In this document: positions 4,964 through 33,139 of the stretch, one piece after another | How positions within the stretch are numbered: the stretch's first letter is position 1 | Layout of the letters: the number at the start of each line of letters is the position of its first letter | Source of the DNA: Candidatus Brocadia sapporoensis | GTDB taxonomy: Bacteria > Planctomycetota > Brocadiia > Brocadiales > Brocadiaceae | DNA length: 54,205 nucleotides | Assembly (NCBI RefSeq): GCF_001753675.2 | Contig: NZ_MJUW02000027.1 | Coordinates: forward strand, 1-54,205 | Direction: 5' to 3' | Position numbers and translations under genes: made by a program | Notes under the pieces: generated by a model | Told to the model about the DNA's origin: nothing | What the model saw: the letters and a program-made list of their open reading frames with translations, nothing else | Databases searched by the model: none

Positions 4964-5694
4964 ATCAGACACCACCCGAGATCAGCCTGGTTGTTCCTTG
5001 TTATAACGAAGAGGGTAATTTACAAGCCTTGGCAGATGCCATTACCGCCGCACTTGATCCGTTGAGTATTTCCTATGAAGTGGTAATTACCGATGATGCC
5101 AGCACAGATAGTTCCTGGACACTCCTTAAAAAAATAGCAGCAACCGATCCGCGTTTTCGTATCCAGCGGTTCAAAGATAATGGAGGCGAATCGGCCGCAA
5201 GCTGGGCAGGTATGAAGGCGGCGCGTGGCCGTTACATTATTACACTGGATGCAGACCTGCAAAATGATCCCAGAGACGTGCCAAAATTCCTGCAAGCACT
5301 TGATCAGTATGATTGCGTATGCGGCACCCGGGTTGCCACACGCGGCAAAGGAGACAACTTTGTCCGGATTGCCTCCTCACACATTGCAAATTGGGTTCGC
5401 AATAAATTATCAAATGAAAATATCAGTGATGCGGGGTGTACCTACCGGGCATTTCGGCGCGAGTGTCTCACAAACATAAAATTTTTTAAGGGTGCACACC
5501 GGTTTTTGCCAACCTTGATTAAAATGGAAGGGTTTCAGGTAACAGAAATTCCGGTGACCAACAATCCCCGATTCTCTGGTCAGAGTCATTACGGGGTATG
5601 GAATCGGTTATTCAAATCGTTCTACGATCTTCTCGCCGTGAGATGGATGAAAAAAAGGATGATACGGTATGAAATCGTTGAAAAACTCAATTAA
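4960..5694 (+). CDS. Family 2 glycosyltransferase (DPM1/ArnC-like)
   Basis: A 244-residue GT-A glycosyltransferase. It has the nucleotide-binding start LVVPCYNEEGN, an ITDDAS motif and the DAD metal motif in [10 protein letters not shown]. It lacks the C-terminal membrane helices of ArnC, so it resembles dolichyl/polyprenyl-phosphate sugar synthases with only a catalytic domain. The likely role is transfer of a sugar from its nucleotide to a polyprenyl phosphate on the cytoplasmic face. ATG at 4960 overlaps the upstream stop. The last ~55 bp are identical to the 3' end of a truncated second copy at 10568-10784. Confidence 0.85.
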   Translation: MNQTPPEISLVVPCYNEEGNLQALADAITAALDPLSISYEVVITDDASTDSSWTLLKKIAATDPRFRIQRFKDNGGESAASWAGMKAARGRYIITLDADLQNDPRDVPKFLQALDQYDCVCGTRVATRGKGDNFVRIASSHIANWVRNKLSNENISDAGCTYRAFRRECLTNIKFFKGAHRFLPTLIKMEGFQVTEIPVTNNPRFSGQSHYGVWNRLFKSFYDLLAVRWMKKRMIRYEIVEKLN

Positions 5695-5709
5695 ATAAGG
5701 AGTCTGTGC

Positions 5710-6075
5710 ATGTTTTGTCATATTGTGCTAGCCGTTACGTGGTTTGGTCAGGAACATCGTTTGTTTGGGCTGAATTGGAGCTATCTCACCATCCTTGGAT
5801 TCCTTGGTAATGCGATATTTTCCACCCGGTTTTTAATCCAGTGGATTGCTTCGGAAAAGACAGGGAAAAGCGTAATTCCTGACTCTTTCTGGTATTGGAG
5901 TATAGCGGGGAGCGTAATTATGTGTATTTACTGGATCATGGAACGCAACCCGGTTGGAATCCTGGCCTATCTGCCAAACACCTTTATTTATATGCGCAAT
6001 TTACACTTGATCAGGAAACATACAATCGCTGCGGCAGCATTGACGTCTACTCAAATTTCACATGAAAAGAGATGA
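5710..6075 (+). CDS. LAB_N-domain small membrane protein, copy 1
   Basis: A 121-residue protein consisting of the 'lipid A biosynthesis N-terminal' (LAB_N) domain: three or four membrane helices with the signature FLIQWIASEKTGKSVIP, then FWYWSIAGS and NPVGILAYLPNTFIY. In some bacteria this domain is fused to LpxB. As a free-standing protein it usually sits beside DPM1-like glycosyltransferases and ArnT-like enzymes, as it does here. Its biochemical role is not established; help in handling polyprenyl-linked sugars is a reasonable inference. An AAGGAG ribosome site precedes the ATG. Confidence 0.8.
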   Translation: MFCHIVLAVTWFGQEHRLFGLNWSYLTILGFLGNAIFSTRFLIQWIASEKTGKSVIPDSFWYWSIAGSVIMCIYWIMERNPVGILAYLPNTFIYMRNLHLIRKHTIAAAALTSTQISHEKR

Positions 6076-9233: not shown

Positions 9234-10567
9234 GGTTCTTCTCCCAATTAGTTTGCAAAAGCTTGTATAATTTTTAATGAAAAGTACCGTTCGTCATGAA
9301 ATCCATAAGCTTTTCTTTTGATACCTTTGATCTTATTATTAACCCCTTCGAGTTTGCTGGTATGAATTTTATAGTCACCGTGATTCAAGATTCCGTAGCT
9401 GTATTTTGTAAGCATATTTGCAAACGTATTCATGACAGAATAGTTTAGCGTGGCTCCATTCATCAATGGCTTTTCTCGCCCACGTCCGTGAGGTATAGGT
9501 CCAAATATGTTTGAGCTTATCTTTAAGAATCAGAACGGTATTTATTGTTTCATTGAGCGACAAGAGCTGTTTTCGATGTTCTCGGTGTTTTTTCCTGCGA
9601 ATATTTCGTTTGTTTTTTAACAAAAGATATTTTGAACCCTTGAGGACGTCCTTATCCTCCTTCGATGCTTTTTGGTATTCAGCATTTCGCACCTTGTCAA
9701 TAACTTTACCAAAGCTTGAAACCCCATGAAACAGGTCAAAGACTATCTTAACATGAGGCACGTACTTTTTTACTGCATGAATATAAGGATCCCACATATC
9801 CATGGCAATGGCCTCAAGCGCCTGCCTTTGTTCCTCTGTCATACCCGCAAAGAAGGTTCCCGGGGTTTCTTTTGTTCTTTCCTTTCCCACCCGGACTACG
9901 CGGCCACTCCGATAGTCCAGAACAACGGTCAAATAGCGCTGTCCCTTCTTAACAGAGATTTCGTCTACTGCCCGTATGCGAAGATTCTGATACTCTGTCT
10001 GCGCGTATTGTCGTTCCAGAAAAAACGTATCGATTGTTTTTACGGTTTTCCAGTTAATTCCAAAATGTTTTGCAACTTCGGTTACGGTTAACACTTTACA
10101 CCGTTCGTGAATATACGCTGCTAAACGATGCGTAACACGACTGTAGGGTTGAAAAAAACCCAAGTCTTCAACTACGATTCGATTGCATGGCTCACAGGCT
10201 ATCTTACGATACGAACAAGTTATCCATACGCGAACGGAACCAAGATTCAGATCCCGCAAAGATCGTTTGTCATGACGGTAAATGCGCTGTGCTTTGCTGC
10301 CACACGCATGACATATTGGGCGAAATCGTTCATCGGGCACTGCAGTAAGCTGAGATATCTCAGCTTCAGGAAAAACACTTTGCTTCGTAATTCTTACCCG
10401 CTGAAAAGGAAAATAGGGTAATATACTTAACGTGGACATTGCTGGTCTCCTGTAAATAGTTTATATAGCGGTATATATCTATCTATAGGAAACACCGAAT
10501 GTCCACTCTTTTCAATGATTGAAAGGAATTTCTTCTCAATTCTTATTGACTAATTGGGAGAAGAACC
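9234..10567 (-). mobile_element. ISL3-family insertion sequence, complete ends
   Basis: About 1,334 bp bounded by 19-base inverted repeats: GGTTCTTCTCCCAATTAGT at the left (allowing one extra base, 9233-9252) and its complement at 10549-10567. The ends begin with GG and the transposase is of ISL3 type. The 8 bases flanking each side (TAAAAAAG and TTAAATTG) are not a direct repeat, so the element probably took part in a deletion or recombination after insertion. The right end abuts a 5'-truncated GT2 gene. The transposase is frameshifted. Confidence 0.85.
9248..10439 (-). pseudogene. ISL3-family transposase, frameshifted
   Basis: Reading from 10439 downwards, the first frame has the zinc ribbon (CHACGS ... 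CEPC), a helix-turn-helix and the catalytic aspartates in RAVDEISVKKGQ and AIAMDMWDPY, then RTWARKAIDEW. At about 9440-9460 it runs out of frame. The remaining C-terminal part, including KLEGVNNKIKGIKRKAYGF with the last catalytic Glu, is in another frame ending at 9248. The shift corresponds to one extra base or two missing bases. The enzyme is probably inactive unless frameshifted products are made. Confidence 0.85.
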
Positions 10568-10784
10568 TTAAATTGTTTAACTGCATGCATCGGTTTTTGC
10601 CCACGCTGTTCAAGACGAAAGGGCTTGTCGTTGCTGAAATCGTCGTAAACCATTATCCCCGGAAATTTGAAAATCAAAGTACGGGATATCCAACAGGGCA
10701 TTCAGGGCGTTTATAGATTTGTTGGCTGTGAGATGGATGAAAAAAAGGATGATACGGTATGAAATCGTTGAAAAACTCAATTAA
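10568..10784 (+). pseudogene. 3' remnant of a second GT2 glycosyltransferase gene
   Basis: The sequence starts exactly at the IS boundary and encodes MHRFLPTLFKTKGLVVAEI, homologous to but clearly diverged from the C-terminus of the GT2 at 4960-5694. A frameshift follows near 10700. The last ~57 bp then become identical to copy 1, where the duplicated block begins at 10728. About 500 bp of the 5' part are missing. This shows that the second cassette once had its own, diverged GT2. Confidence 0.8.
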
Positions 10785-10799
10785 ATAAGGAGTCTGTGC

Positions 10800-11165
10800 A
10801 TGTTTTGTCATATTGTGCTAGCCGTTACGTGGTTTGGTCAGGAACATCGTTTGTTTGGGCTGAATTGGAGCTATCTCACCATCCTTGGATTCCTTGGTAA
10901 TGCGATATTTTCCACCCGGTTTTTAATCCAGTGGATTGCTTCGGAAAAGACAGGGAAAAGCGTAATTCCTGACTCTTTCTGGTATTGGAGTATAGCGGGG
11001 AGCGTAATTATGTGTATTTACTGGATCATGGAACGCAACCCGGTTGGAATCCTGGCCTATCTGCCAAACACCTTTATTTATATGCGCAATTTACACTTGA
11101 TCAGGAAACATACAATCGCTGCGGCAGCATTGACGTCTACTCAAATTTCACATGAAAAGAGATGA
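10800..11165 (+). CDS. LAB_N-domain small membrane protein, copy 2
   Basis: Identical in protein sequence to the gene at 5710. The LAB_N signature FLIQWIASEKTGKSVIP and its membrane helices are intact, and the AAGGAG ribosome site is retained. Its expression may differ because the upstream GT2 gene is truncated and an IS lies in front, so any promoter would have to come from the IS end or the remnant. Confidence 0.78.
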   Translation: MFCHIVLAVTWFGQEHRLFGLNWSYLTILGFLGNAIFSTRFLIQWIASEKTGKSVIPDSFWYWSIAGSVIMCIYWIMERNPVGILAYLPNTFIYMRNLHLIRKHTIAAAALTSTQISHEKR

Positions 11166-27866: not shown

Positions 27867-29939
27867 TCAGTTTTTACGACAGACCCTGTACCATTTTTTT
27901 AATGCTCTGAGACACACGATCATCGGATGGAAAATTCCCAGGAATCTCCTTAAAAGCCTTATAAGGAGGAAGGTGGCTAAGAGACCCATGATTATTGCAA
28001 TAATTACCGGATTAATTCCTGATAGCCAGGCGAGCGCCTTTACGAGGCCGGACAGAAATGCAAGAGGATGCGTTACAAAGGCAATCAGGAGTGCGGCTGA
28101 TAATCCGTACCTGGTAAACCTTGCAGCTTTTGTAAATATTTTTGGAGGCATAAAACGCATAACAAAAAGCCCCGTCTTTCCTTTTTTAGCCAGCGCAAGT
28201 CCATCGTCTCCATACCTGCCAACATACCGGATGACATCATCTCCGTGCTTTTTTGCAAGACGGATTACATCATTTCCATACGTTATGATGGACCGAACAC
28301 CGCTTGAACCGTATTTTGATACATACAAAATAACATCATCACCGTAGAGTGCGGACAATTTAATTACCTCATGGCCATAAACGGAACTCAAAAGCACGAC
28401 ATCCTTGCCATACTTCTGAATGACCCTGATGCCATCATCCTCGTAAAGCATAATGTACTGAATAACGACGTCACCATATTGATGCGCCAGGGACAAGGCA
28501 TCATCACCATATTTTTCAATTGTTTTCCCGGCGCCGGCACCATATTGGGAGACGTATCGAACAACATCATCCCCATATTGTTGTGAGAGATGGATGATTT
28601 TTCCGTCAGTTGCCTTCAGGGCTTTTATACCGTCGTCACCGTGTTTTGCCACAAACGGAATAACGTCGTCCCCGTACGTTGCAACAAGATCTTCTGTCAA
28701 AAGGGTCAGCCCTTTGAAACCCTTCGTAGTCTTTGCAAACCGTATCCCTCGGACCGCTAGCTTTGTCCCTTTGGAGACAACGCTTCCAACGGGAATAAGT
28801 CCCAGAATATCCAGTCCGGCAAATAGTTTGTCCTCAAGGTTAATGTCTTCCTGCCGAATCCATTTCCGGCTGGTCCTTTCTATATCGGAAACAAAGAAAT
28901 TCCGTAATTTATTCGAAATGATGGTAACGGCCTCTTCCCTGACATTGTTGATATCAAGGATTTCAAATCTGTCCATGAAATCATTTCCTAATTCATAGAT
29001 AAGGTTGATAGCCCTTCTGGCATTTTCACGTTGCATAGTGGCATTGTTTATTGTGTTTACGGCAGGAGTGTCTGTGCCATACCACCAGGCGGACAACCAT
29101 TCATAGGCGCTGGTGGTCTTCAAACAGTTAAAAAATTGACTGCTAAAGTCTCTGTTTTCATAGAAAAGATAGATGATGGGAATTGTTTGCTTGTGTCCGT
29201 ATGTCTTTATTACCTGGTAAAAGATGTCGTCGTCGATAAAAAGGGTGAATAGGGTTTTCGCCTTCTCGCCATATTCTTTTAAGGCGAGAAGACCGTCATC
29301 CTGAAATTTAATAACGATTTGCAATACATCTTTGTCGTAAAGCCTTACGAAACTAATTCCATGCTTTCGTGCCAGGGGGAAGACAATATCTCCCTTTTCA
29401 TTGGCCAGGTTGATCAAGTCCGTTCCTCTGTCCTTGCTCACATTGATAAGAAAAAAGTTTTCTGGATCATTGACAATATATTTTATTCCTTCGCTTCCGA
29501 AAGTCTTGTAAAAAACAGAAAGGGCTTGGGGAGAGAATGTGTTGACATTAGGTATATTATTGCCATGATCGCTGTAGAGAAGAAAGATGTCATGGCAATC
29601 GAGGAGTGGATGTAGGCTGGCCATTTCTTTGCCGAATTTTTCGAGCAATGCGAGTCCTTCAACTTTATACTCTTCCAAAAAATCAAGAGCAAAGGCGCCA
29701 TACTGCTGACAGAGTCGCTCCGCATTATTTCCGAATTGTTCAAATACGTCTTTGTGATTTAAGTAAGCCGTGTCAGCATGATTCCTTTGGGCAGGTAAAG
29801 GTGCAATTGAGATGTCTCCTGTCAACCGGGAATCTGGATTCTGTGAGGCTAAAACGGTTAAGCAGTTAATAAAAAAAAGAAGGAAAGATACGGAAATCTT
29901 TTTGTTTATGAAGGATTCAATCCGGAAACAACGTTTCAT
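27867..29939 (-). CDS. Exported membrane protein with tandem 11-residue repeats
   Basis: A 690-residue protein not recognised as any family. It has a signal peptide or anchor (residues ~14-32) and, at the C-terminus (about 607-670), two or three membrane helices. Residues 423-587 are fifteen consecutive units of exactly 11 residues without gaps, consensus G-D-D-V-I-x-Y/L-V/A-x-x-Y. Examples are GDDVIRYVGRY, GDDVILYVSKY and GHEVIKLSALY. Degenerate copies in the same spacing occur earlier (Gly70, 81, 103; Gly172, 183, 194). The regular Gly-Asp-Asp start and hydrophobic positions suggest a short-helix solenoid facing the periplasm. Function unknown; a scaffold or binding role is a guess. It appears to stand alone. 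Confidence 0.75.
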   Translation of the reverse strand: MKRCFRIESFINKKISVSFLLFFINCLTVLASQNPDSRLTGDISIAPLPAQRNHADTAYLNHKDVFEQFGNNAERLCQQYGAFALDFLEEYKVEGLALLEKFGKEMASLHPLLDCHDIFLLYSDHGNNIPNVNTFSPQALSVFYKTFGSEGIKYIVNDPENFFLINVSKDRGTDLINLANEKGDIVFPLARKHGISFVRLYDKDVLQIVIKFQDDGLLALKEYGEKAKTLFTLFIDDDIFYQVIKTYGHKQTIPIIYLFYENRDFSSQFFNCLKTTSAYEWLSAWWYGTDTPAVNTINNATMQRENARRAINLIYELGNDFMDRFEILDINNVREEAVTIISNKLRNFFVSDIERTSRKWIRQEDINLEDKLFAGLDILGLIPVGSVVSKGTKLAVRGIRFAKTTKGFKGLTLLTEDLVATYGDDVIPFVAKHGDDGIKALKATDGKIIHLSQQYGDDVVRYVSQYGAGAGKTIEKYGDDALSLAHQYGDVVIQYIMLYEDDGIRVIQKYGKDVVLLSSVYGHEVIKLSALYGDDVILYVSKYGSSGVRSIITYGNDVIRLAKKHGDDVIRYVGRYGDDGLALAKKGKTGLFVMRFMPPKIFTKAARFTRYGLSAALLIAFVTHPLAFLSGLVKALAWLSGINPVIIAIIMGLLATFLLIRLLRRFLGIFHPMIVCLRALKKWYRVCRKN
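28179..28673 (-). repeat. Fifteen in-frame 33-bp coding repeats
   Basis: The 495-bp stretch is exactly 15 x 33 bp, each unit coding for one 11-residue repeat of the surrounding gene. Units are diverged in DNA, so this is an old protein repeat kept in frame and not a recent satellite or CRISPR array. Confidence 0.85.
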
Positions 29940-30168: not shown

Positions 30169-31296
30169 TTATGCCTTAATCATCTCGACGTTTGCCCGTG
30201 GTACAATTGCTGTGGAACCATCAGGAAATTCAACTTCAAGAATGCGCACCATTGCCTCGGTTTCTATTTTTTGTGGGGGGAAGGGGAGTTCCTTGATCTT
30301 ACCAATTTTTCCAAAATAGGGTACACGTATAATTCTCACAAAATCCCCAATTTCCATGCCTCTGTCGACGGGTTTATCCGTTTCTTTTCCGGATAGCTTG
30401 TTTGTCTCATAAGGGATAACAATTTCTGGTCTTACTACGCCCGCCCGAATCTGGGTAGCGCCGTTCATGGAAGCTTTAGCGCCTGCGCGTGATTTTAACA
30501 GCTCGAATGTTTTGTATGCCATGGGTATCTGTCCAAAACCCTCAGTTAAGATAAGGGTGATACCGATTTCTTCCGATCCGGTAATTGCCACTCCCAGGTC
30601 ATACCCAAGCAGTTTTTTCAGATCTTCGTCATCAAATCCACCAACAATGATGCCTTTGACACCTACCTTCTTTGCCTTATCAATAACGTTGTGTTGGATA
30701 AATGCACCACCAACAATAATCTTGTCCTTATATGCGGGTTTGATGTGATCGTCGGTAAGCACATCATCAGGCTTATCTACCGCAATGGCCAGTTCACCCG
30801 CGATTTCACCTCCCACACCGAAGATGCCCTGAATAAAGGTAGCAGTGGTTTCCATGACCACGCCTTCTTTTTCCATAACCTCTGTGACAGTACCGTCAAT
30901 ATAAGCAAGCACCTGGATCGGTTTTGGTGGCTCCCGCAAAAGGACTTGTCCCGTGACGGTGGATATCGTTTCGATCGTACCTGTGATCGGTGCAAGCAGG
31001 ACGGACTTTAACATCTTGATCCACGGTTTGGTCTCTGCAATAATTTCGTCTTTCCGGACAGGCTCGCCCTCCTTCTTCAGCATATATTCCCTGATTTCCT
31101 TGGGCTGAATGCCCAGACGGTTCACTGCATTAATGGCGTGCACCTTGCCGGGCAAATGGGCACGGGCTACCACATCCTCCGCCTTCAGGACGTCGCCTTT
31201 TTTGACAATAACATCACCCAATAAAGGCAAGATGCGTTGGCTTGTCAGCTTCGTCCTTTCAGCTATGCGTAAACCCGGAGTATATGCGTGAGTCAT
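30169..31296 (-). CDS. Conserved protein with beta-barrel-like N-terminus and KOW-type C-terminus
   Basis: A 375-residue protein encoded 43 bp after the GlmL-family gene, in the same operon. The N-terminal half has repeated short-strand motifs of the barrel-sandwich type (LPGKVHAIN, LAPITGTIETIS, YIDGTVTEVM) without an obvious lipoyl or biotin lysine. The centre, KIIVGGAFIQHNVIDKAKK ... GIIVGGFDDEDL, resembles a small alpha/beta domain. The end, GDFVRIIRVPYFGKIGKIKEL, is a KOW-like segment. I do not know its function. Tight linkage to GlmL suggests it works with that ATPase. Confidence 0.65.
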   Translation of the reverse strand: MTHAYTPGLRIAERTKLTSQRILPLLGDVIVKKGDVLKAEDVVARAHLPGKVHAINAVNRLGIQPKEIREYMLKKEGEPVRKDEIIAETKPWIKMLKSVLLAPITGTIETISTVTGQVLLREPPKPIQVLAYIDGTVTEVMEKEGVVMETTATFIQGIFGVGGEIAGELAIAVDKPDDVLTDDHIKPAYKDKIIVGGAFIQHNVIDKAKKVGVKGIIVGGFDDEDLKKLLGYDLGVAITGSEEIGITLILTEGFGQIPMAYKTFELLKSRAGAKASMNGATQIRAGVVRPEIVIPYETNKLSGKETDKPVDRGMEIGDFVRIIRVPYFGKIGKIKELPFPPQKIETEAMVRILEVEFPDGSTAIVPRANVEMIKA

Positions 31297-31339
31297 GGCT
31301 TGCTTGAAATTAAATGCGTAAAATTATGACACGTATTTT

Positions 31340-33139
31340 TCATAGATGTACAGACACCGGGTAGGCATCGACTGCCTTAGCCCATTGCTGGAGCTGCTCT
31401 ACCCGCATTGCCTTATCCTTTGCTAACGCGATCGGTTTCCCGCGGGTGTCAATAACCAATCCTACAACCCCGCCAAAAACCTTCTTTGTTATGGGCTTGC
31501 CCCTTCCAGCGCCGGTGTCAAAGTTTTTTGCCGGTAAAACCTCAATTTCCGCTACCTGATCGATACCCAGTGGTAAAACACGCAGCTCCCCAAAGGGAAG
31601 GGATTCTTCCGTCTTTTTGCCATCGGGCATCGTTATCTTGTACGAGATACATTTTTCTTTGGGCTTTCCAATGCTCCCTTTCACAAGAGAAACACATGTA
31701 CCCAGATGAATCAGGCAGTCCTTCTCAAAGACTTCTGTGGCGGCCTGTTCGTTTACCGTTGAAAGGACTCCCAGGTGCGGCATCATGAAGATGCTATCGA
31801 CGGCGATCCTCGTGATTCCCTCTGGCTGAAAGGCATCCATCATCATGAGCATTGCCTGTGACCTGCGCGGTGCGTGGGAAAGCACGCCTCCACTACCTAC
31901 TAACAAGTCTAATTTTAACATATCTACAAGTGTCTCACCTTCAATCTCCTGTTTAAATGCCTCAGAAATATCGCGTTCCCGCTGTACCCCCTTGAGCCCG
32001 ACTGCAAGGGACTTGTGCTGTTCGAATGATACCCTAAGGGCTTCACGTGAAATGGCCTGCTCAATCTTCAACTCTTTTAAAGTCTGAGGAATGGTTGTGG
32101 GACGAATCATTTTGTTTTTAATCCTGTTCCGCAGATCGGATTCATCGATATCAAATGGCACCCACCTGAGAATGTTTTCAAGGCCAGCCTCTGCCAGCAC
32201 ATTGGAAATGCTGTAACTCATTCCAAGATTGGCGCTCACCGTACGGTTAAAGATTTCGCCGTATACAGAAAAGACGTCTGTAGTGGCGCCACCGATATCC
32301 ACGCCCACCACATTGATATTATTTTTTTTAGCAATAGTCTGCATAATGAGGCCAACTGCACCGGGGGTTGGCATAATGGGAGCTCCTGTCCACGACATGA
32401 GTTTTTTGTAGCCAGGCGCCTGGGCCATAACGTGTTCGAGAAAGAGCTTCTGGATTTCCTGTCGTGCCGGGAAGAGATTTTCCCGTTCAAGCGTAGGCCG
32501 GATATTATCCGTAATGTCGAGAGCAGTCTTTTGGCTTAAAATTTCTTTGATTTTTCCTCGTGCTTCTTTATTGCCGGCATAGATAATGGGGAGTTGAAAG
32601 GTCATGCCGAGCCGGGGTTTTGGATTGGCGGCTGCGATATATTCAGCCAGTTCTACTACATGGGTAACGGTGCCGCCGTCTGTACCACCGGAAAGGAGTA
32701 TCATGTCTGGCCGAAGATGCCGGATACGGTCAATCTTCTCGTGCGGAAGGCGCTGGTCGTTTGATGCGATGACGTCCATAACGATAGCACCCGCTCCGAG
32801 TGCTGTGCGCTGTGCGCTTTCTGCCGTCATAGTCTTTACGGCGCCTGCTACCATCATCTGCAAACCGCCGCCGGCGCTGCTTGTGGAAACGTATACATCG
32901 ACTCCGGTATTTCCACGGGACGGTGTGATGATTTTTTCTCCATCCAATATCTTACGGCCAGAGAGTTCTTCGACCTCTGCAAAGGCATTTAAAACGCCAC
33001 GGGTCACATCCTCAAAGGGAGCTTCCACCGTGGTGGGCGATTCTCCGCGGAATGTTTGTCGATACTCCCCGCCCTTTTTTTCTATTAAGATAGCCTTTGT
33101 TGTGGTGCTGCCGCAGTCTGTTGCGATAATAACTTCCAA
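31340..33139 (-). CDS. GlmL/MutL-family ATPase (glutamate mutase accessory-type)
   Basis: A 599-residue protein of the GlmL family, whose founding genes lie between the two subunits of B12-dependent glutamate mutase and are thought to reactivate or chaperone it. Actin-like ATPase phosphate loops are DCGSTTTKAILIE at the start and VGVDIGGATTDVFSVYG in the middle; LLSGGTDGG and LLVGSGGVLSH are further motifs. No mutase genes (GlmS/GlmE, ornithine or lysine aminomutase) are in the window. The partner enzyme is therefore unknown. It lies 4 bp after the upstream 123-residue ORF and 43 bp before the KOW-type gene. Confidence 0.8.
   Translation of the reverse strand: MEVIIATDCGSTTTKAILIEKKGGEYRQTFRGESPTTVEAPFEDVTRGVLNAFAEVEELSGRKILDGEKIITPSRGNTGVDVYVSTSSAGGGLQMMVAGAVKTMTAESAQRTALGAGAIVMDVIASNDQRLPHEKIDRIRHLRPDMILLSGGTDGGTVTHVVELAEYIAAANPKPRLGMTFQLPIIYAGNKEARGKIKEILSQKTALDITDNIRPTLERENLFPARQEIQKLFLEHVMAQAPGYKKLMSWTGAPIMPTPGAVGLIMQTIAKKNNINVVGVDIGGATTDVFSVYGEIFNRTVSANLGMSYSISNVLAEAGLENILRWVPFDIDESDLRNRIKNKMIRPTTIPQTLKELKIEQAISREALRVSFEQHKSLAVGLKGVQRERDISEAFKQEIEGETLVDMLKLDLLVGSGGVLSHAPRRSQAMLMMMDAFQPEGITRIAVDSIFMMPHLGVLSTVNEQAATEVFEKDCLIHLGTCVSLVKGSIGKPKEKCISYKITMPDGKKTEESLPFGELRVLPLGIDQVAEIEVLPAKNFDTGAGRGKPITKKVFGGVVGLVIDTRGKPIALAKDKAMRVEQLQQWAKAVDAYPVSVHL

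Follow-up and report, generated by a model that had tools for sequence, protein, structure and literature searches.

Layout of the locus

The window, that is, the whole 54,205-nucleotide stretch of Candidatus Brocadia sapporoensis DNA that we analysed, carries on its minus strand an open reading frame for a 690-residue protein rich in 11-residue repeats (Table 1). The start methionine of most orthologues aligns with residue 12, an isoleucine in the window protein (alignment A1), and the true start is therefore uncertain. A preliminary description of the locus had proposed a signal sequence and C-terminal membrane helices, and both predictions agree with the hydropathy and charge of the protein. 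At the profile level, the C-terminal hydrophobic segments also align with the equivalent hydrophobic region at the C-terminus of the short planctomycete relatives discussed below. The conserved middle region has no significant 11-residue period in the orthologue alignment, and AlphaFold confidence there is mostly low. The array is near-neutral to acidic, with a net charge of -8 to +2, and of -3 in the window protein. No catalytic or enzyme domain was recognised in the window protein with Pfam or NCBIfam.

Table 1. Features of the repeat-protein gene (window coordinates)
Feature	Coordinates	Strand	Residues and basis
Gene for 690-residue repeat protein	27867..29939	-	ORF with ATG start; orthologues in 18/24 family genomes
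Putative Sec signal sequence	29844..29939	-	Residues 1-32 (~15-33 by hydropathy and charge); orthologue alignment A1
Degenerate 11-residue units, N-terminal half	29250..29762	-	Residues 60-230, e.g. G70/G81/G103 and G172/G183/G194
Conserved middle region	28704..29072	-	Residues 290-412; includes LDILGLIPVGSVVSKGTKLA
Array of fifteen 11-residue units	28179..28673	-	Residues 423-587; classes ABC ABC ABCC ABC AB
C-terminal hydrophobic segments, probable membrane anchor	27948..28115	-	Residues 609-664; hydropathy and model helices
Basic C-terminal tail, probably cytoplasmic	27870..27947	-	Residues 665-690; charge +8 over residues 664-690

The gene is flanked by DapF on one side and by a 375-residue protein that matches no Pfam family on the other, with a MutL-family protein alongside. 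The MutL-family gene (PF13941) and the Pfam-less gene (window 30169-33139, minus strand) also occur together at another locus, L108. Neighbours vary among the 15 anammox loci: a PMT-family glycosyltransferase was present at 8, an M48 peptidase at 6 and DapF at 3, the last two being named from the copies in the window. Because a PMT-family gene adjoins or lies near the orthologue at those 8 loci, and because the S-layer protein of anammox bacteria carries O-glycans (PMC5088730), the repeat protein could be a substrate or partner of these enzymes, displayed as a cell-surface glycoprotein. We consider this the least probable of the accounts weighed here, since the association holds at the level of clades only, the PMT genes of the window lie more than 11 kb from the repeat-protein gene, and the array is not enriched in serine or threonine.

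A separate feature of the window is a direct repeat (5590-5889 and 10680-10979; spacing 5090 bases, 94% over 300 nt), whose copies extend to ~7578 and ~12668 and contain matching sets of ORFs (LAB_N and methyltransferase, joined in the first copy by a 162-residue gene); a PMT gene comes after each set. An ISL3-type transposase gene lies between the two copies at 9375-10439. The repeat is apparently a duplicated envelope cassette.

An 11-residue array conserved at the protein level

The preliminary description had divided residues 423-587 into 15 gap-free units of 11 residues, and both cutting the sequence into units and autocorrelation confirmed this division. The autocorrelation z-scores were 10.5, 11.3, 12.5, 10.9 and 9.9 at lags 11, 22, 33, 44 and 55, where 1000 shuffles gave no value above 4.5; averaged over the orthologues, the z-scores rose to 11.2-16.1 at the same lags. 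Glycine occupies position 1 in 13/15 units, isoleucine, valine or leucine position 5 in 14/15, and tyrosine or histidine position 11 in 13/15, giving the consensus G-D-D-V-I-x-L/Y-V/I-x-K-Y. Units 3 (DGKIIHLSQQY) and 5 (GAGAGKTIEKY) are degenerate, and unit 15 ends in KKG. The array is free of insertions and deletions in 15 of the 16 aligned sequences, the remaining one having a single-residue gap. The degenerate units that had been suspected in the N-terminal half also proved real, with a lag-11 z of 5.6 over residues 60-230 in 15 aligned sequences (shuffle maximum 4.2).

At the nucleotide level the units share merely 8-24 of 33 positions with one another. The periodicity therefore resides in the protein and does not reflect a recent expansion of the DNA. 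From these sequences we infer that the 11-residue pattern is maintained by selection on the protein and does not stem from recent duplication.

Beyond the 11-residue units that had been described, we found a higher-order pattern of 33 residues. When unit similarity was averaged over 16 aligned sequences and the order of units permuted, units resembled each other more than by chance when separated by three positions (33 residues; p = 0.003) or by seven (77 residues; p = 0.0008), these p-values being uncorrected for the seven lags examined. The units fall into three classes, labelled post hoc from conserved residues of the same data: class A has an aromatic residue at position 7 (units 1, 4, 7, 11 and 14), class B a glycine at position 4 (units 2, 5, 8, 12 and 15, with alanine in unit 5) and class C a leucine at position 7 (units 3, 6, 9, 10 and 13). 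Their order follows a super-period of 33 residues, with a single additional 11-mer, and the 11-mer seems to form part of a longer repeat of 33 residues.

Predicted structure

Two separate AlphaFold2 runs predicted a regular unit every 11 residues, in line with what the preliminary description had anticipated. The full-length model (16 sequences) had a mean pLDDT of 62 and a pTM of 0.37, with the array at ~85-95, while a model of residues 377-690 (19 sequences) placed most of the array at pLDDT ~90-96 with a pTM of 0.61; the inputs were close orthologues with an effective depth of ~1.8, and periodic sequences can yield over-confident models. The model of residues 203-393 is unreliable. In the truncated model the 15 units form 13 short helices, with breaks at 12 of the 14 unit boundaries, and both unbroken boundaries lead into B units. 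Among the matches listed, Foldseek searches with the full-length and truncated models against PDB and viral structures gave none at E <= 0.001; a TAL effector and other alpha-alpha solenoids headed the PDB matches listed, at non-significant values (TM <= 0.26, E >= 0.0029). The modelled helices may stack into a solenoid or pack into a compact bundle.

An 11-residue period could instead reflect a hendecad, in which the array would be one long continuous amphipathic helix, either in a coiled coil or on a surface in the manner of synuclein or perilipin. The hydrophobic spacing of 4-8-11 suits an 11/3 helix, and so does an array with almost no insertions or deletions. We nonetheless hold this reading to be very unlikely. 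The helix is predicted to break at most unit boundaries, glycine opens nearly every unit with Asp-Asp behind it in a break-and-cap pattern, and a uniform hendecad would not predict the 33-residue class pattern.

Distribution and short planctomycete relatives

Close orthologues were present in 18 of the 24 genomes of the window's family, with named matches in Brocadia and Jettenia, and in none of the 15 other genomes of the same order. They are 59-74% identical in the alignment and normally occur as one copy; two genomes had a second match, in each case in split or partial contigs. The gene is missing from several anammox genomes, among them a 99% complete genome of the same genus, and it is therefore inessential to the anammox lifestyle.

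The preliminary description had proposed a survey of planctomycete homologues and their neighbours, and this survey yielded short relatives, a partner gene and varied neighbourhoods. The family reaches beyond the anammox bacteria: a profile search of 392 Planctomycetota genomes found distant short relatives across Planctomycetota, the short-relative profile matching in 38 genomes, of which 16 belong to the window's family, with a few weak matches judged false. These relatives are 260-300 residues long, with a signal sequence, fewer and interrupted 11-mers and, in most, a C-terminal hydrophobic segment. Lag-11 autocorrelation was above the 95% shuffle limit in five of the six tested and just below it in the sixth. 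Profile alignment with hhalign matched the anammox family to the short relatives at 97.4% over residues 412-665 (array and C-terminal anchor) and to a wider set at 98.6%, scores that are inflated by the repeats. By tblastn, a plasmid-borne member matched anammox orthologues with E as low as 1.2e-12. No relatives were found in phages or viral contigs, and no relative of the anammox array was found in plasmids.

Several individual matches required separate judgement. The match at L046 was judged a chance match on another gene, and those at L123 and L124 (E ~7e-4) were false positives resembling MurE and DinB, respectively, as judged by sequence alone. The minus strand at L044, despite its spurious first appearance, encodes a real array. 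In one other planctomycete family we observed small proteins of ~95-150 residues (L119:3392-3844, L120:3129-3431, L121:3117-3401 and L122:820-1146, all minus strand) without an obvious signal sequence, consisting largely of HGPEVLELVKK-type 11-mers with lag-11 z of 10.5-12. Their likeness to the window protein could be due to homology or to convergence.

A partner gene and a possible link to conjugative elements

In most of the 13 genomes (of the 392) in which it occurs, a second uncharacterised exported family (A3/A6), most of whose members have a Gly-rich hydrophobic segment, adjoins the 11-mer gene. Such pairs of short member and partner were found in families f82, f100, f74, f63, f33 and f31 and on plasmid pSINAC03 of Singulisphaera acidiphila. 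The partner had no match in any Brocadiaceae genome searched, and the anammox form may therefore work differently. The idea that the partner had been fused to the anammox protein as its N-terminal half was rejected (hhalign E 0.79). At two loci of one family (L093:5783-11736 and L094:5475-11979) the pair comes after a trypsin-like protease (in L094 with a GYF_2-like domain); a small gene follows the pair (DUF1257 match in L093), and an AAA ATPase gene is found further along.

In f31, a type IV coupling protein lies near the 11-mer gene at 6 of 11 loci, with ParB at several. On pSINAC03, which was typed as conjugative with a MobF relaxase, ParB, the partner, the 11-mer protein and a type IV coupling protein are encoded in a row (L117:5824-11074). 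These arrangements raise the possibility that the family originated in conjugation, as a component acting at the coupling protein (a mating-pair or entry-exclusion factor), and that the anammox bacteria retain a domesticated remnant of a mobile element. The patchy distribution in f31 (10 of 170 genomes) fits such an origin, as does the proposed integration of a pSINAC03-related plasmid into the chromosome of a relative (PMC5352709). On the other hand, most other lineages (f82, f100, f74 and f63) have the pair without a nearby coupling protein, none was found at the sampled anammox loci, and a chromosomal origin followed by capture on a plasmid is equally possible. We therefore regard a conjugative origin as decidedly unlikely.

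Proposed role

Predicted export, a probable membrane anchor, a basic tail and the lack of a recognised catalytic domain make an interaction scaffold the most economical reading of the protein. We put at even chances the proposal that it represents a new family of helical-repeat proteins, exported and anchored in a membrane, that serve as interaction scaffolds, with both fold and function deduced indirectly. The protein would be exported by Sec and held in a membrane by its C-terminus. It may be displayed in the periplasm, as opposed to an anammox compartment; the preliminary description had allowed for either the periplasm or an internal compartment.

The body of the protein is predicted to be a chain of short amphipathic alpha-helices of 8-10 residues, one per 11 residues. 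A glycine followed by Asp-Asp is naturally suited to break one helix and cap the next. In the array, tyrosine or histidine would end each helix, glycine would break the chain, and the aspartates would cap the next helix, with three helix classes recurring every 33 residues. Neighbouring helices could pack into a core through the valine, isoleucine and leucine residues at positions 4, 5, 7 and 8, and the resulting shape may be an elongated, solenoid-like rod outside the cytoplasm. Such a rod would most likely act by binding, as a scaffold or adaptor for the organisation of envelope proteins.

The planctomycete relatives probably act together with the exported protein encoded next door. On plasmid-like elements the pair lies beside a conjugation coupling protein, so its task there is probably to support the envelope-located transfer apparatus. 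Anammox bacteria would have kept a longer single-gene form, often beside PMT-type glycosyltransferases. Links of the family to conjugation or to glycosylation are suggested by gene context. A bolder proposal, which we consider doubtful, is that the family has an undescribed fold, with 8-10-residue helices, single-glycine breaks and three 11-residue helices per 33-residue turn, and that it serves as an exported, anchored scaffold across Planctomycetota that is also carried by conjugative elements.

The family would extend the known alpha-helical repeats by one whose unit is unusually short (11 residues, 33 per super-period), which is missing from curated libraries and whose consensus is simple enough for use in protein design. 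It also defines a two-gene exported module that several planctomycete families share and that in one lineage is linked to conjugative DNA transfer, and so offers a testable way into the poorly known planctomycete envelope.

Comparison with known families

The pattern had been thought to belong to no named repeat family, and this view stood: profile searches (Pfam, NCBIfam) and Foldseek gave no confident match. No Pfam or NCBIfam model scored above its cut-off in the window protein, PADLOC and PHROGs gave nothing relevant to it, and no 11-residue family of matching pattern was found in the literature. The repeats are real, conserved and outside every family searched; in kind the protein belongs with the helical-repeat proteins, and a new fold is unproven.

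Bacteriocin_IIi (PF11758), the known family that came closest, gave a sub-threshold score in the window protein (15.1 bits, cut-off 25). The match was weak in 15 of 16 orthologues and above the cut-off in one, from Candidatus Brocadia carolinensis (28.6 vs 25 bits); weak matches to SapB_2 occurred in 6. Aureocin A53 and lacticin Q, which have saposin-like folds, permeabilise membranes (PMC6072434). Given these matches and the predicted tethering of the array to the membrane, the array could consist of tandem aureocin- or saposin-like helix pairs that bind or deform lipid bilayers, for example in shaping the internal membranes of anammox bacteria. We rate this as unlikely: no single stretch was significant alone in any member examined, the net charge of the arrays (-8 to +2) contrasts with the +8 of aureocin A53, and related genes also occur in planctomycete lineages beyond the anammox family. 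The aureocin-type peptides resemble the window protein in their short helices, and the profile match covers two adjacent 11-mers in most orthologues. They differ in being leaderless, cationic, non-tandem peptides of ~51 residues, whereas the window protein has 690 residues, a signal sequence, an anchor and an acidic-to-neutral array.

Ankyrin repeats and DARPins share the 33-residue period and gave a weak phmmer match (best 2e-4). We rejected a relationship to ankyrin: a Pfam hit was absent at E <= 10 in the window protein and at E <= 1 in members, a profile match reached only 0.0036, and in searches with the predicted models no ankyrin structure appeared among the Foldseek PDB matches listed, none of which was at E <= 0.001. 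TAL effectors, TPR proteins and designed helical repeats are likewise built of tandem helices. TAL effector- and TPR-type solenoids gave no significant fold or profile match, however, and the helices of the window protein are predicted to be shorter. Hendecad coiled coils have a comparable 11-residue hydrophobic period and differ from the window protein, with its glycines at unit starts and predicted helix breaks. The short planctomycete relatives (A2, A5) share with it the exported layout, the 11-mers, the C-terminal hydrophobic segment and profile homology; they are set apart by their fewer, interrupted units and by a second, adjacent gene (A3, A6) that the anammox bacteria lack.
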